Source: Isoetes taiwanensis (Eukaryota; Streptophyta; Lycopodiopsida; Isoetales; Isoetaceae). Taken from it: DNA of 64,000 nt. This document shows, in pieces, positions 4,232 through 11,833 of the stretch. The stretch lies in the NCBI GenBank assembly GCA_021234155.1, contig JAJEKV010000097.1, forward strand, positions 1,240,001 through 1,304,000. The letters are read 5' to 3'. A program made the position numbers and the translations under genes. The notes beneath the pieces are model-generated. The model was not told the origin of the DNA, ran no database searches, and saw only the letters and a program-made list of their open reading frames with translations. Each line of letters opens with the position of its first letter. Position 1 is the stretch's first letter.

Positions 4232-4247
4232 TGTTAGATAATGCCAT

Positions 4248-4273
4248 GGTTCTATTGCGATAGCAATAGAACC
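4248..4273 (+). repeat. 5' terminal hairpin of element A
   Basis: Perfect inverted repeat with arms GGTTCTATTGC and GCAATAGAACC around a GATA loop. The identical structure starts element B, which marks it as a functional terminus and not a chance palindrome. Confidence 0.85.
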
Positions 4274-5679
4274 GACATTCCTTGGATGGGGACGCCCCTT
4301 TTTCGGACTCTCTATTTATTCAACATATTTTCATTTTTTCGTCATCGGCGTTCTCTTGAGCTAGTTTTCTGCTTCTTCTCTATCCTACCAGTTGGATAAT
4401 CTACCGTTCAAAGACTATTCCTATGTTTGATCTTTATTGCACAATCTGCTAAAATTTCTGGTCTGGTGATCATGTCCTTTTGCGTTTCTATGCTTTTGAG
4501 ATTGAATGTAGCATCCTTTTCCTTTCTCTGCGAGTTTTCTTTGGCTTTTCCAGGAAGCTCGGTAGTAGGGCTCTTCCTTTGGCTTGGATTCGGCCACTGC
4601 TGCCAGCGACTGATTCCCGCTAAGCCTTCGTGGATGTGGTTCAAGAACTATTTTTTCGACCAGAGTTTTTGTGCAGTCCAGATCTGGTTTTTCTTGGTTT
4701 TCTGGGTTCTTAGCGGTGAGGGTTTTGCAGGAATCCAGTTCTTTGGTTTGTATGATCCTGGTGGACCACTCAATATATTCGTGGACAGTTTTCAATCATT
4801 TTTCTTCCTGATCTTGCTAGAGCACAAAGCATGAATCGATGGTTGCAAGGAGTCTTTCCGAACCGTGGCATGCCTTGGGATAATATTGATACCTTTTTAT
4901 TCCACTTTTGCGGATGTGATCCGTGGTTTAGCATAAATCGATGGTTGCAAGCCCGAACCACGTTTCGTTCATATTGATTTTTGTCTTTGCTTTGATGTTC
5001 AAAGATGAGGGCTCGTGGTCGTTTTCCCGGTTGTCGGTGCTTATAGAGACCCACCTGATTCGTTTGTCAAGGCTAGTTTTGAGCGAATCGACTCCGGATC
5101 GTGTTAGCAAGGACGGACTCTAGCCACAAAGATCCGCGGAATAACTCAGATCGAATCCTTGCATGGATTCGGGGTTCGTTGTCAGCGACCCTAGAAGTCT
5201 TCACCGCAGCAAACCTTCCCCATCGTAAAGTCGGGCCAGTAGTCGTTTTTGCCTTCTTCAAAAAATATGATATTGTTAATACAAATTGATAGGGTACATT
5301 GGATAGCCAAATGGTTTTTATTCCTGTGGTCATAGGTTCAAGTTCCGAATGAAACAATTTTTCGAGTCCAATGTTTTGGCGTTGTATTTATCTTTATTTG
5401 TGATTGGAAGGTTTTTTCATTCAAATTCTATTGTCTTGGGGATGTTTGTATCTTTCATTGTAGCGTGCGAAGTTGCTAGTCACATATGGGCCGTTACATG
5501 ATATTTTATCCTTCTTCTTAAATTGTTTAGAGTGACCCATGTGAGTAAAGTCCTATTTTAAGGCATTTCTTTTGTAAAGATCTAGGCTTTAGTCCTCATA
5601 TTAACGACAAGTATATTTTCCTATCCTTATTTGTTGTCCGGAGATGTTTTGTCCATTTTATAAAATGCCTTCATCAGTT

Positions 5680-6080
5680 TTTGGCAACATATGTTGTTGG
5701 ATTCACGTTCCATTCAAATGCCTTGATATGTGATACGCCGTCTTTCTATGTTTCGCCGTTTTTTTTCTTGTGGATTTTTTTTCGAGCACAACCTAGGTAT
5801 GGTTTTGTTTTCTCATTTCATTCATCCGCCACGTGAGTTTTCGACTAGGTATATTGTAATCATTTTTTTCTAATGTTGGCCCCCTCAATTTTTTGTGGTT
5901 TCTTCAAGTTTAACCTAGTGGATTTTTTCAAGCCGCTAAACCAAGATGTGTTGTAGGATTCTTGTTTCATTTAATTGCTCGTGATAGGTTATACTTTGCT
6001 CTCCTAATATTGGTGCCGATTTTTCTTTTGTGGATTTTCTCAAAAGCTAAACCTAGGTATGTTTTTATTTTCTCATTTCT
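5680..6080. repeat. Internal degenerate repeats of element A
   Basis: The motif TTGTGGATTTT followed by a T/C-rich spacer, CTAAACCTAGGTATG and TTTTCTCATTTC recurs about three times with substitutions (near 5770, 5910 and 6030). This suggests part of element A grew by local duplication. Confidence 0.5.
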
Positions 6081-8763
6081 TTTGGGGCCATACCAAACTT
6101 GCATTGGATTTTATTGTGCTATGGGCTCAATATTTTTTTTCTCGCCTAGAAGGCCCATATAAGGGTTTAGGGTCCGGCCTCCCTTTTTTGTCATATTTTA
6201 TACCGGTTATAGATTGCATGCCCAACTATTGTGTACCAGACTCACAACTTTTGTTTGTCGAGCATTTTTTGCGCTTTTATCTTTCTCATTGTCATTAGTT
6301 TAACACGCTGTGTTGTATAGTACTCCATGGTTGGGTGGTTCGTTGCATCACTTGGGTACGTGTCTTTTATAGTTTGCATCACTTGTGTATGTGTTTTTTA
6401 TAGATGTCCCTGAGGTTGTATTGCGTTTTGACTGATATTGCGTTTTTCTTGAGATTCTTCTATAAGATTCGTACTTGCCAATAGTGATAACTCATCATGT
6501 TGTTGCCCTTTTCTCTTAGTTTGTTTCACATAGCGTGTTAGTCAGTGCTGGACTGCTTTCAATTGATCAATCTTTTTAGTTTTTCCAATTTTTATGACTA
6601 CATTCTTGTCTGGGACTATCACAACTTATGGTCTTTTGGATGTTTTCCATTTGGTGGGCACGTGATAGGGGATGTTTGCGCTTATCCCCTCTTTTTTCAG
6701 TTTTTAGGTTGTATGTCATTTTGCTCAAGGTGCTCATTCTTCTATTGGACGCTACTCGTATTTGTGCCCCTTTCTTCTTGACTCTGCATTAAGCATAGTG
6801 TCCTTATTTCACTCATGGTAGCCTTTAGAGGCAATTTGTAGTTCTTCTATCGCAATTTTTTCATTGGAGACTGCTTGTGGCGGCATTATGGTGATGTGCA
6901 CATTTTCATGGCATATATTACATAGTTCTCTCCATCGTTGGTTTTCCAGATTTCTTAGTTGTTTCGATTATCTATCTTGTGTTCTGGCATTAGAGTTTCT
7001 ATGGGCGTTGTTTGCAAGTTATGGATCTCACTGAGCTATTCATTTATAGGGTCTCCTATAAATTTTCTAGTTGTTTATCGTGTTGTTCCTTGTTCTCCAT
7101 TCTTCGCTTGAGTCATCCTATTTGCAGTTACATTTGTTCCTTTGCCCCCTTTTGTTTGCTCGTTATTTTTGCCTTCGTGCCACTCTTGCTCACGTTCTTA
7201 TTTTAGATCCTCCCATAATTTGGGGCTCAAGGGTTGCTTTTTCCAGTTATCTTTGGTCCCTCCGGGTTCACGTCATTACCCTTGTTTCGACATCTTTGAA
7301 CTTTTTTCGTTGATCTTGCTCCCTATATATGTAGTTAGGTTGATACTAATTTTTAGCATATTGGGTGCATGCGGTTTGGCATCATGTTTTATCGCGTGTT
7401 TCCTTTGTCGACTAGTCTTTCACTCATTCTCGTATTTAGCCATTTGCTCCATGTATTCTCGTTGACTTCTTTTTAGCTATTTTAGTTCCTTTTTTAGTTC
7501 ACCTTTCTATTTATTTTTGATCCACATTTCATTAGTCTCATATGTGTTTTCTTTTCGTTTGTTTATTGACCGTGGTCGAGCCTTCATTCTTCTTTTTTTT
7601 AATCTATATTCGCTCAAGTTCCTTTTCGTTTTTTTTATTCAATTAACCTTTTGAATTGTCTTTACTCTATTAGCCTTGCTTAGCCCTTTCTTCTTGATTT
7701 GTAACCCTCACGATCTATTCTAGTCATCCTTTTTGCCAACTTGTTACGTCTTCTATTGCTCATTTGTTACTTGTTTCTCTCCGCTTTCAACTGTTATGTT
7801 CAAACCCGTTGTACCAAGTTGTATTCAATCCTTTGTTGTATTTCACAACATCGATTGGAGCGATGATAATCGATATCTTAGCCTTTGCTAATTACATTTG
7901 TCTATTTTCTTAATGGTGGGTTATATAGTGGTTGTTTATATTCGGTGAGATTTAGTAGTACACTTTGGTTTTTTGCTTTCTTTGCATGGTTCGTTCCGCA
8001 CCATTTTGGGGTCATGTTTTTATCGGGTTTTGATGCTTTTTCCATTGAGTTATCATTGTTCTTTGCTACATTGCTCCATGGTTTCCACATTCTATGCTTT
8101 AGAGTCGCGAGTGGTTTATTTGCTCCTTAGCTTTTTTGGTGTCCTTGATCATTTCACCTATATGTGCTTCATCTTTTTTGAATTACTACATCACCACCAT
8201 TCCCTTTTTGTCCGGGGAAGTTCCTTTGGTCTCGATGAATTTCGTCATTTCCTATTAGCCGTTTACTCCTTTTTATTTTTGTCGTTTCATTTGCTCCATT
8301 TGCACTTTCATCTTGCCTTCTTTGTACCATTGCCTTAAGCTACTCTTTCAAACTCCATTGCCTTCATTTGACTCTTTACCATGTTTTATGTACTCTCTTT
8401 AGATTTTTGGTACCATGGGTTTCAATTTTCCGTTTTTCACGCCTAGTTCTCTTCTTGCATTTGATAATCCTATGTTTTTTGTTACGTTTCCAACCCTTGG
8501 TTTTTCAGATTCAGCTTTGGTTGCTCACTTTTTTTTCTAGGATTTCCAAATTTTAAAGTACTTTTACGATTATTTACGGTTGTTCAAGTTTGTTAATAGG
8601 TTTTTTCTTTATTTTTAGGCGTTTTTACTTTTTGTCATTTAGGTATTCTTTTGGCCCTTTTACTCCTATTTTTGTGCTTTTATTTTTCCGCTTTGACCCT
8701 TTGTTATTTTTCGTTTTAGATTTGTTACGCTTTGCTCAATATGTCCTATTAGCTTCTTTCATT

Positions 8764-10072
8764 GCATTCTGTTTCATTTTGTTTTCAATGATCCTTGTGG
8801 ACTCGTTTCTCCACATCTTTATTCCACATTTTCAATCTGTTCTATTAGATTCGACTTGCTCCATTATGGGTTGTTCGCTCCCTTTTGTTATCGCTCCTCA
8901 TTATCTCAAAGAACTCTATTTGATGGCATTTCTCTATTAGGTTGTGTATGCCATGTTCCCTTCATTGATTTCCTTTGGCTTGTTGTTTCCTTTCACATTA
9001 CTCCTTTAGTTGCATCGGTTCCTTCTTTGTCTTCTTGCTCCTTGTCTTTTTTGCTAGTTAGGATAGTTCGGATTTTTGTATCTTTGTTAGTGTAATATGT
9101 ATTGGTGCATTGGCCATTTGCCATCGTCACTCTATTGATGTCGTCAGGTTCATGGCTCTGTTTGCTGTTGTACCATGAGTTCCTTTCCTCATCTCTTACC
9201 GCACTTTTCCATCTGCTCCCTCATTTTTATGCTTCTCTTCCATCTTCCACGAGAGTGTCCCATTGTGTCCTTCTTTTCTCCTTTGTCTGGGTTCATCCTC
9301 TCTGTACCTTCAGGCTTTGTGGTCGTTCCGCTTTTACCATATTTTCTATCAGCCTTACATGTGCATTCTGTTTCGTCTTTATTTCAGTGACCCTTGTGGA
9401 CCCTTGTGCATTCTGTTTCATTTTGTTTTCAATGACCCTTGTGCATTCTGTTTCATTTTGTTTTCAATGATCCTTGTGGACTCGTTTCTCCCTGTCTTTA
9501 TTCCACATTTTCAATCTGTTCTATTAGATTCGACTTGCTCCATTATGGGTTGTTGCGCTCCTTTTTGTTATACGCTCCTCATTATCTCAGCAGCTCTATT
9601 TGATGGCATTTCTCTATTCGGTTGTGTATGCCATGTTCCCTTCATTGATTTCCTTTGGCTTGTTGTTTCCTTTCACATTACTCCTTTAGTTGCATCGGTT
9701 CCTTCTTTGTCTTCTTGCTCCTTGTCTTTTTTGCTAGTTAGGATAGTTCGGATTTTTGTATCTTTGTTAGTGTAATATGTATTGGTGCATTGGCCATTTG
9801 CCATCGTCACTCTATTGATGTCGTCAGGTTCATGGCTCTGTTTGCTGTTGTACCATGAGTTCCTTTCCTCATCTCTTACCGCACTTTTCCATCTGCTCCC
9901 TCATTTTTATGCTTCTCTTCCATCTTCCACGAGAGTGTCCCATTGTGTCCTTCTTTTCTCCTTTGTCTGGGTTCATCCTCTCTGTACCTTCAGGCTTTGT
10001 GGTCGTTCCGCTTTTACCATATTTTCTATCAGCCTTACATGTGCATTCTGTTTTGTCTTTATTTCAGTGACC
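8764..10072. repeat. 679-bp tandem duplication in element A
   Basis: Copy 1 (8764-9442) and copy 2 (9443-about 10072) are nearly identical; both begin GCATTCTGTTTCATTTTG. Differences are a few single-base indels, for example near 8875 versus 9555, and substitutions. At the junction a unit of about 33 bases is repeated again (9390-9480). The high identity indicates a recent event or an assembly duplication. Confidence 0.9.
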
Positions 10073-10208
10073 CTTATAGTCTCATTTCTCCCTTGCTTTC
10101 GAACAATTCTTCATTTTGGCTTCCTTTCTTTCTTTGTCTATGTTGAGATTTGTTCCTCTTCTATCGGCCGATATATATGTTGTCATAGGACCCATCCTAG
10201 GAATGCCA

Positions 10209-10236
10209 CGGTTCTATTGCGATAGCAATAGAACCG
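10209..10236 (+). repeat. 5' terminal hairpin of element B
   Basis: Arms CGGTTCTATTGC and GCAATAGAACCG, 12 bp each and perfect, around GATA. Compared with element A the stem is one pair longer. Confidence 0.85.
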
Positions 10237-10699
10237 ACATTCCTTGGATGGGGGGCCATTTTAGGACTCTCTATTTATTCAGCATATTTTCATTTTTTCG
10301 TCATCGGCGTTCTCTTGAGCTAGTTTTCTGCTTCTTCTCTATCCTACCAGTTTCCCTCACCCTCCCTCCCTTGATGGTTTTACATCTGACCTTATCCGCA
10401 TTTTGTTTTCTCATTATCCCTTTCTATTCCATTTCCTTTTTGTCCGTTGACCATCTTTGTCTATGTTTCCATATTTTTCGGGTCCCTCTGTAGTCTCTTG
10501 TTCTTCCGTGGTTTCCTTTCAATGTTTTTGATAGTGCATATGTCCTTATTCATCAGTTTTCTGGATGTGGCACTTTAGCCTGTGAGGCCTACTCATTATC
10601 TCATTCTTCTCAGACTCATCCAAATCTTACGTACTTTTCAGTAAGCCTTATGACCCTCGATATCCTCCGTGCTTTCTTTCTTCTTTGAGGATATATATA

Positions 10700-11085
10700 T
10701 TTTTATTTCCATTTTTTCTCGGTGTGGCTCTGTAGCCTCCGCGACGTCTTATCATTTCATTCTTTCTCAGCATGGCTATAGCCTCTGTGACTTAATTCAT
10801 TTTTTCTCGGACATCATTTTCACAGCCGTGTGGATCTGTCTATGTTGTGGCTCTGGTGTCGTCGGCTTTGTCTGCATAGTTTCTTTTTCTCGGCGTGGTG
10901 TTGTAGCCTCCGACACAACCTTTGTTATTGATTTCCTCTCGGCGTGGCACTGTAGCCTCCGAGGCAGCACTAATCGGATGGTTTTTCTTTTTTCCCGCGA
11001 TGGTTTTTTTTTTCCGCGGACGGTTCCCGATTGGTCGGCTGTTGTTTCTTCCTCGGCGTGGCCCTGGAGCCTCCGAGTGCTATTA
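10700..11085. repeat. Degenerate CTCGGCGTGG / GTAGCCTCCG repeats
   Basis: A roughly 25-bp unit, CTCGGCGTGG then about 4 variable bases then GTAGCCTCCGAG, recurs at least five times (near 10720, 10770, 10890, 10950, 11060) at irregular spacing with T-rich spacers. The unit's ends, CTCGG and CCGAG, are complementary, so each copy can fold. It lies wholly within element B. Confidence 0.6.
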
Positions 11086-11833
11086 TATTTTGATATTTTG
11101 CGCTTTCGCACGCGTGTCGGGCTTGAAGCTCCTAACTTTCTAACGGGTCATTCTCCTTTGCATTCTTTCCACTGCAGGTTCTTTCTTGCAGCTTGCTCAG
11201 TTGTCAGCGCCATCACGTTGTATTTCAACTCTTTTCTTGGCAGATGTATGCTAGTAGCAGTCTTCTGGAACGTTGGTGGCCATTTGTCATAAGGGCGGGG
11301 TTTTCTATCCCGATGGGAAGCGGTCGCGGGTTCTTACCTTTGCTTATACCAAGTAGCGAAGAATCACCCTCTATTCTGGATGAGAAGCATTTACTAATTT
11401 TCTCACCTTTGCATAGACCACGTGGCGGATAAATCATCTTTTATCTTGTATTCCTTAGTCTTATCATGCTCTCGATGATTGTCTAGTTTTCGGAGCACTA
11501 AAATTTCAAGTTTTTCAGAAGTTCTACTCCAGTAGGGGTATCAATTTGTATTCAATGATTTTACAAAGCTCAATGAGAACACCACTTCGGCCGATATATA
11601 TGTTGTCATAGGACCCATCCTAGGAATGATTGATTACAAAAAAGTTTAAAAGAACCATAGAAACCAGTAAAATTCCCAACTGAAGACCAACTGTTATCTA
11701 TTTGAAGTCCAGAATTTCTGTATTTATGTGCAGTAGCAGTGAGCTCAATGTCAAAAATAACTTGCCATTTGATCCAAAGAGGAGAAGGATTATGACCACC
11801 ATGCAGGCATCTATTTCTGTGTTTCCAAACATT

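Follow-up and report, generated by a model that had tools for sequence, protein, structure and literature searches.

A non-coding element with split direct repeats in Isoetes taiwanensis, very probably a DIRS-order retrotransposon

Split direct repeats in described elements and in the window

Several retrotransposons that rely on a tyrosine recombinase (YR) are bounded by direct repeats that are split between the ends and the interior of the element. The order A1-B1-A2-B2 has been described for PAT (PMC4157794), the equivalent order A-pol-B-A-B for Ngaro (PMC3783388), and a split direct repeat arrangement for VIPER, whose A2-to-B2 stretch corresponds to SIRE of Trypanosoma cruzi (PMC6681497). 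DIRS1-like elements have a three-base circle junction, are thought to integrate by recombination, create no target duplication, and end in NTT, most often ATT (PMC3266345). In contrast to the former group, their terminal repeats are inverted and accompanied by internal complementary regions, and split direct repeats are absent.

The window, that is, the whole 64,000-nt stretch of I. taiwanensis DNA analysed here (contig JAJEKV010000097.1, positions 1,240,001 to 1,304,000), contains repeats in the order A1-body-B1-A2-tail-B2, with B1 directly abutting A2 (Table 1). This is the A1-B1-A2-B2 order of the split-direct-repeat YR retrotransposons PAT, Ngaro and VIPER, and, as in those elements, a short identical core is present at the borders and at the junction without target duplication. 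We assign positions 4240-11627, at a probability of about 0.93, to one retrotransposon that is non-autonomous, belongs to the DIRS order and has the split-repeat layout A1, body, B1A2, tail, B2. The original prediction had proposed an unclassified kind of element; as the descriptions cited above attest, the arrangement was already on record.

The sequence features from which that prediction started were largely reproduced. The common 5′ part, estimated at 145 bp, measures 151 nt in A1 and 148 nt in A2, which are identical at 143 of 148 aligned positions and differ by three further gap positions, and the 42 bp reported for the common 3′ part are identical throughout. Each A repeat contains, five bases in, the expected perfect hairpin, a 26-nt palindrome with completely paired 11-nt arms and a 4-nt loop. 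The 5′ inner motif CATTCCTTGGATGGG, which had been described as the inverse of the 3′ terminus, does stand in inverted relation to the 3′ end CCCATCCTAGGAATG, but the two are near-inverse and not exact. Together, B1 and A2 make up a larger inverted repeat, with a folding energy of -26.2 kcal/mol against a mean of -7.0 kcal/mol for shuffled sequences (z -10.2; 0 of 200 shuffles). In the junctions of three recombinase-encoding relatives (L144, L148 and L150; see below), the palindrome arms are mostly kept inverted while the centre varies, which suggests that the inverted repeat itself is needed. All four elements compared have a TATA-like motif, CTATTTAT, at +67 to +69 of A1; its conserved position suggests a putative promoter from which RNA would start inside A1.

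The base composition of the element is strongly asymmetric between the strands: T makes up 44% of the body and 39% of the tail and A 17% of each, whereas the flanks have 26% T and 30% A. Within the body, a tandem duplication of about 680 bp occupies positions 8763-10120 and includes a 300-nt stretch that is 100% identical; related copies such as L005 apparently contain the duplicated unit once.

Table 1. Positions of the element and its parts in the window
Feature	Positions	Strand	Basis
Whole non-autonomous element, AAT core included at both ends	4240..11627	+	Empty LINE sites L013-L018
AAT core, left border	4240..4242	.	Sequence
A1, left terminal repeat, 151 nt	4243..4393	+	Alignment to A2
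Palindrome in A1, 26 nt	4248..4273	.	Sequence; fold of left end
TATA-like CTATTTAT in A1, putative promoter	4312..4319	+	Position kept across elements; promoter role inferred
Body, T-rich on + strand	4394..10163	+	Base composition; no match to relatives' recombinase/RT
B1, internal copy of right terminal repeat, AAT at its end	10164..10204	+	41/41 identical to B2
A2, internal copy of left terminal repeat, 148 nt	10205..10352	+	Alignment to A1
Palindrome in A2, 26 nt	10210..10235	.	Sequence; fold of B1A2
TATA-like CTATTTAT in A2	10271..10278	+	Sequence
Tail, A2 to B2 interval	10353..11586	+	Alignable across subfamilies (14 dimers)
Tail block b1	11465..11497	+	14/14 tails, at most 8 of 32 mismatches
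Tail block b2	11566..11585	+	14/14 tails, at most 3 mismatches
B2, right terminal repeat, AAT at its end	11587..11627	+	Sequence; identity to B1

Coding relatives and the candidate helper

The window copy encodes no recombinase, reverse transcriptase (RT) or RNase H. In tblastn searches of its body, six recombinases had no match at E values up to 1e-3, and the one RT frame used reached no E value below 1; apart from the ends, the body shows no similarity to the coding relatives. A tyrosine recombinase is encoded by relatives with window-type ends, not by the window copy. Since this copy lacks coding capacity, its helper has to be inferred from the shared ends and would be the recombinase of those relatives.

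A genome search with the PF00589 profile retrieved 58 matches, mostly in open frames of 200-440 codons, and eight tyrosine-recombinase loci, hand-picked among them, were fetched. In four of the eight (L144, L147, L148 and L150), a B1A2 junction lies 48-59 bases past a recombinase frame of 324-347 codons and is followed by blocks b1 and b2; a second B is present in two of these four, L144 and L148. The Pfam Phage_integrase profile matched with E 1.8e-8 in L147 and E 1.4e-9 in L144. The coding relatives that the original prediction had proposed to look for are recombinase loci with the B1A2 junction, and its suggestion that the family is non-autonomous and depends on an enzyme that other elements encode is supported by recombinase frames lying beside the same junction. 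The remaining four fetched loci (L143, L145, L146 and L149) had no such ends within the 4.6 kb read. Three of them (L143, L146 and L149) contain long open frames of a second recombinase clade, which shares about 50% identity with the first and probably belongs to another family with its own repeats. The frame in L145, without these ends in the 4.6 kb read, is of yet another type, possibly that of a Crypton or another DIRS-order lineage.

The left end was analysed by comparing the positions of exact copies of the L147 start variant (53 sites) with loci matching the start of the L147 recombinase stretch. Forty of 98 candidate loci were scored, corresponding to 40 of 41 recombinase matches, the one dropped being a second piece of a locus already listed. 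An A1 repeat was located 4.4-6.0 kb upstream on the same strand at 14 of the 40 loci, and an A2 repeat 1.10-1.13 kb downstream at nine; four loci had both start repeats, 19 had one or both and 21 had neither. Altogether 23 of the 53 exact start sites were paired with recombinase loci, while 0.007 pairs are expected by chance, and a single pair within 8 kb was on opposite strands. The count excludes starts separated from a recombinase by 14-15 kb (C83, C1089), as well as one that lies 7 kb downstream (C1034).

Just upstream of one recombinase copy, whose own frame is broken, locus L151 contains a 457-codon frame with a YVDD motif. Its matches, to RVT_1 at E 7e-5, to RNase H at E 0.0095 and to the Dam methylase profile PF05869 at E 0.0097, all fall under the Pfam cut-offs. 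Put together as a composite of several loci, the coding relatives appear to run A1, RT/RNase H, recombinase, B1A2, tail, B2. The A1-coding-B1A2-B2 repeats, the internal repeats downstream of the recombinase and, at one locus (L151), a candidate RT/RNase H frame upstream of it resemble the PAT group and Ngaro (PMC4157794, PMC3783388), from which the window copy differs in being non-coding. PAT and Ngaro are separated from each other by a putative methylase domain, to which the frame in L151 gave the weak match mentioned above.

The same ends could be taken for those of two non-autonomous Helitron2/Helentron rolling-circle elements arranged head to tail. Subterminal inverted repeats with a hairpin near one end, a trait of Helitron2/Helentron elements, are present in the window: on the minus strand, a subterminal inverted repeat is seen at one end, an inverted repeat plus hairpin at the other, and insertion is between T and T. 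This anatomy fits the descriptions of HINE/DINE-1 (PMC4067079) and FoHeli (PMC5148889), with which it shares the hairpin near one end, the subterminal inverted repeats and a T-rich target. The genome also contains Helentron-type Rep proteins with a GSPH motif (142 matches to one of them), in one family together with an endonuclease domain. However, when the genome was searched with PF14214, the GSPH motif and the Rep protein, the ends of the window element were found in none of the nine Rep loci fetched (L044-L048 and L139-L142; 9-10 kb each, so that ends farther away would be missed), whereas recombinase loci do have window-type ends, and the fixed body-then-tail order described below would be unexpected for chance tandems. 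One PF14214 match, on C967, is about 9-10 kb from a start motif, and no end motif encloses it within the 11.6 kb fetched. Because the ends associate with a recombinase, the rolling-circle reading was set aside, and we consider it very unlikely. The searches also turned up a 7.9-kb family (L047:236-8125 and L048:197-8087, 92.8% identical) with a Helentron-type Rep (QHRGSPHDH) and, downstream of it in L047, an endonuclease domain that matches PF03372 above and PF14529 just below the cut-off; we take the family as an endonuclease-bearing Helentron in a plant-like genome.

Body and tail as compartments of one element

The units designated "A" and "B" in the original prediction, which took them for a tandem pair, are two compartments of one element: the A-B-A-B succession is that of split repeats, and the sampled ends follow a body-then-tail order. 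In the 1.66-Gb genome, the start motif has 1609 matches and the 3′ end motif 406 matches at up to three mismatches, and the reversed-pattern controls gave 0 in both cases. Forty ends (20 from each of two lists of 100 matches) and forty starts (from 100 listed of the 1609) were sampled, neither sample being random, and were typed with libraries of body ends and tail ends from 14 dimers, the other three of 17 candidates being excluded because they had no junction or no end. A second start follows 16 of the 18 body-type ends, the other two running into host DNA, and none of the 15 tail-type ends (Fisher p 1.5e-7, relatedness ignored); the seven untyped ends precede host DNA in six cases and a start in one. 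Among the sampled starts, 13 have an end in front of them, and ten of these lead into tail-type sequence while three are untyped. The 27 starts that face host DNA lead into body in seven cases and into tail in eight, with 12 untyped.

The compartments diverge to different extents. Across the 14 dimers, tail distances between subfamilies do not exceed 0.37, while distances for the last 1 kb of the body reach 0.57, at which no true resemblance is left. Body and tail distances are correlated with each other (Mantel r 0.82, p 0.0001, uncorrected for relatedness). Blocks b1 and b2 are present in all 14 tails and missing in four of the five body units compared; the fifth, L090, contains both blocks and a decayed second start and is probably body plus tail. 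Within one element, A1 and A2 are 95.7-99.2% identical over the first 120 nt (five elements), and this identity is not always above that between elements: the window value of 95.7% compares with 95.7-97.5% to the related copy C296, and the 97.4% of L089 with up to 97.5% to L091.

Two long copies considered as coding partners were rejected. C296 has the window body type with about 6 kb inserted, and C920 has no frame of at least 150 codons in 10 kb. In the members of other subfamilies L089-L092, no recombinase match at E 1e-3 and no RT-frame match better than E 1 was found.

It is extremely unlikely, in our estimate, that the tail (A2 to B2) forms a short element of its own, which repeatedly inserts where a distinct body element ends, even though 8 of the 27 host-facing starts lead into tail-type sequence, one such start (C912:1087781) has an end motif 1.1 kb further on, and L095 has a body end close to that of L098 (distance 0.08) and a tail close to that of L097 (0.02). 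None of the 15 tail ends is followed by a new start, the coding elements keep the same order, and recombination between A1 and A2 or template switching would account for both the solo tails and the reassortment. The solo tails have the A2-to-B2 form of SIRE; unlike in VIPER/SIRE, non-coding copies that retain A1, several kb of body and B1 are common here as well.

Insertion, proposed mechanism and the land-plant host

The sequence AATG had been noted at all three borders, and it is indeed found at 4240-4243, 10202-10205 and 11625-11628, but only AAT is common to them, the G being part of the element at 4243 and 10205 and part of the host at 11628. All 10 of the other two-ended elements have AAT at their left border, as do 22 of the 27 sampled host-facing starts, a count independent of the search pattern; in the other five, AAT is shifted by one base (L052, L065) or the triplet is one letter off AAT (three cases). 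The AAT found at 23 of 23 right borders in the end sample was not counted, as the search patterns contained AAT. The core resembles that of DIRS1-like elements, AAT being ATT on the opposite strand.

The element is inserted in a LINE, whose frames in the right flank match zf-RVT, RVT_1 (below the cut-off), an endonuclease domain and DUF4283. This domain set is that of plant L1 elements, and DUF4283 is typical of plants. So is the NAC domain, for which the genome gave 91 matches, counted exon by exon; both observations agree with a land-plant host. A search with the joined flanks listed 40 LINE matches, two of them being the window's own flanks. Six of the 40 matches (L013-L018) were read, all of them related LINE copies that lack the element. 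Where the flanks meet, each has four bases: AATG in L013 and L014, which are the closest at 97% identity, and ACTG in the remaining ones. Since these six empty sites, all for the one insertion, contain the four bases once, insertion was precise and duplicated nothing past the short core.

An LTR retrotransposon remnant or a pair of TIR DNA transposons, or as a special case a Gypsy element with DIRS-like repeats, for which the alga Klebsormidium offers a precedent (PMC5890265), would share the repeats at both ends and the TATA-like motif, but the two end repeats are unlike each other and do not form one direct or inverted terminal repeat, the identical long terminal repeats and target duplication of LTR retrotransposons were not found in the window element, nothing past the short core is duplicated and the coding relatives have a tyrosine recombinase, which leaves this explanation a negligible chance. 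The earlier concern that the ends might be internal parts of an LTR, Helitron or TIR element found no sign in its favour.

For the DIRS-order element, the following mechanism can be proposed. Transcription from the putative promoter in A1 would yield RNA without the outermost bases, and helper proteins of the coding relatives would reverse-transcribe it. Because the RNA would begin inside A1, the internal A2 copy would be needed to rebuild the lost start, and B1 would likewise restore the end, so that internal B1A2 would restore both ends and give circular DNA with joined ends; B1A2 has the form expected of the joined ends of such a circle. The helper recombinase would then exchange the AAT of the circle with a target AAT, leaving AAT on both sides. 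Solo tails may arise by recombination between A1 and A2 or may be mobile short elements like VIPER's SIRE.

Reports on the DIRS order in plants are divided. A 2022 review of land-plant transposons omits the order as known among plants only from green algae (PMC9033089), and according to a 2012 paper streptophytes were not known to contain complete elements of one DIRS1-like class, ALOG plant regulators being derived from the recombinase of that class (PMC3537659). A table for ferns includes a DIRS row with an entry of 361 (PMC6890710), DIRS is one of the classes of plant retrotransposon listed in a 2024 review (PMC11630846), the hosts of Dirs1-like elements given in a 2014 paper include Viridiplantae, with Volvox as the host of Kangaroo (PMC4157794), and Gypsy elements of Klebsormidium, a streptophyte alga, are reported to carry DIRS-like repeats (PMC5890265). 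Because of these reports, the novelty of the present element is not complete. Among the titles and abstract openings retrieved in searches of open-licence papers, none describes a split-repeat recombinase retrotransposon from a land plant. What the window holds is a known kind of element in an unexpected host, a land plant, and its hairpin and inverted ends, which resemble those of Helentrons, are a pitfall for annotation. We give an even chance to the broader proposition that land plants do have abundant DIRS-order elements and that these have here given rise to a modular non-autonomous superfamily, in which the tail and ends recognised by the helper are conserved, the long non-coding body is repeatedly replaced, and bodies and tails are swapped between subfamilies. 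Since the I. taiwanensis genome contains open recombinase frames together with 1609 start-motif matches, the survival of the DIRS order in plants becomes testable.
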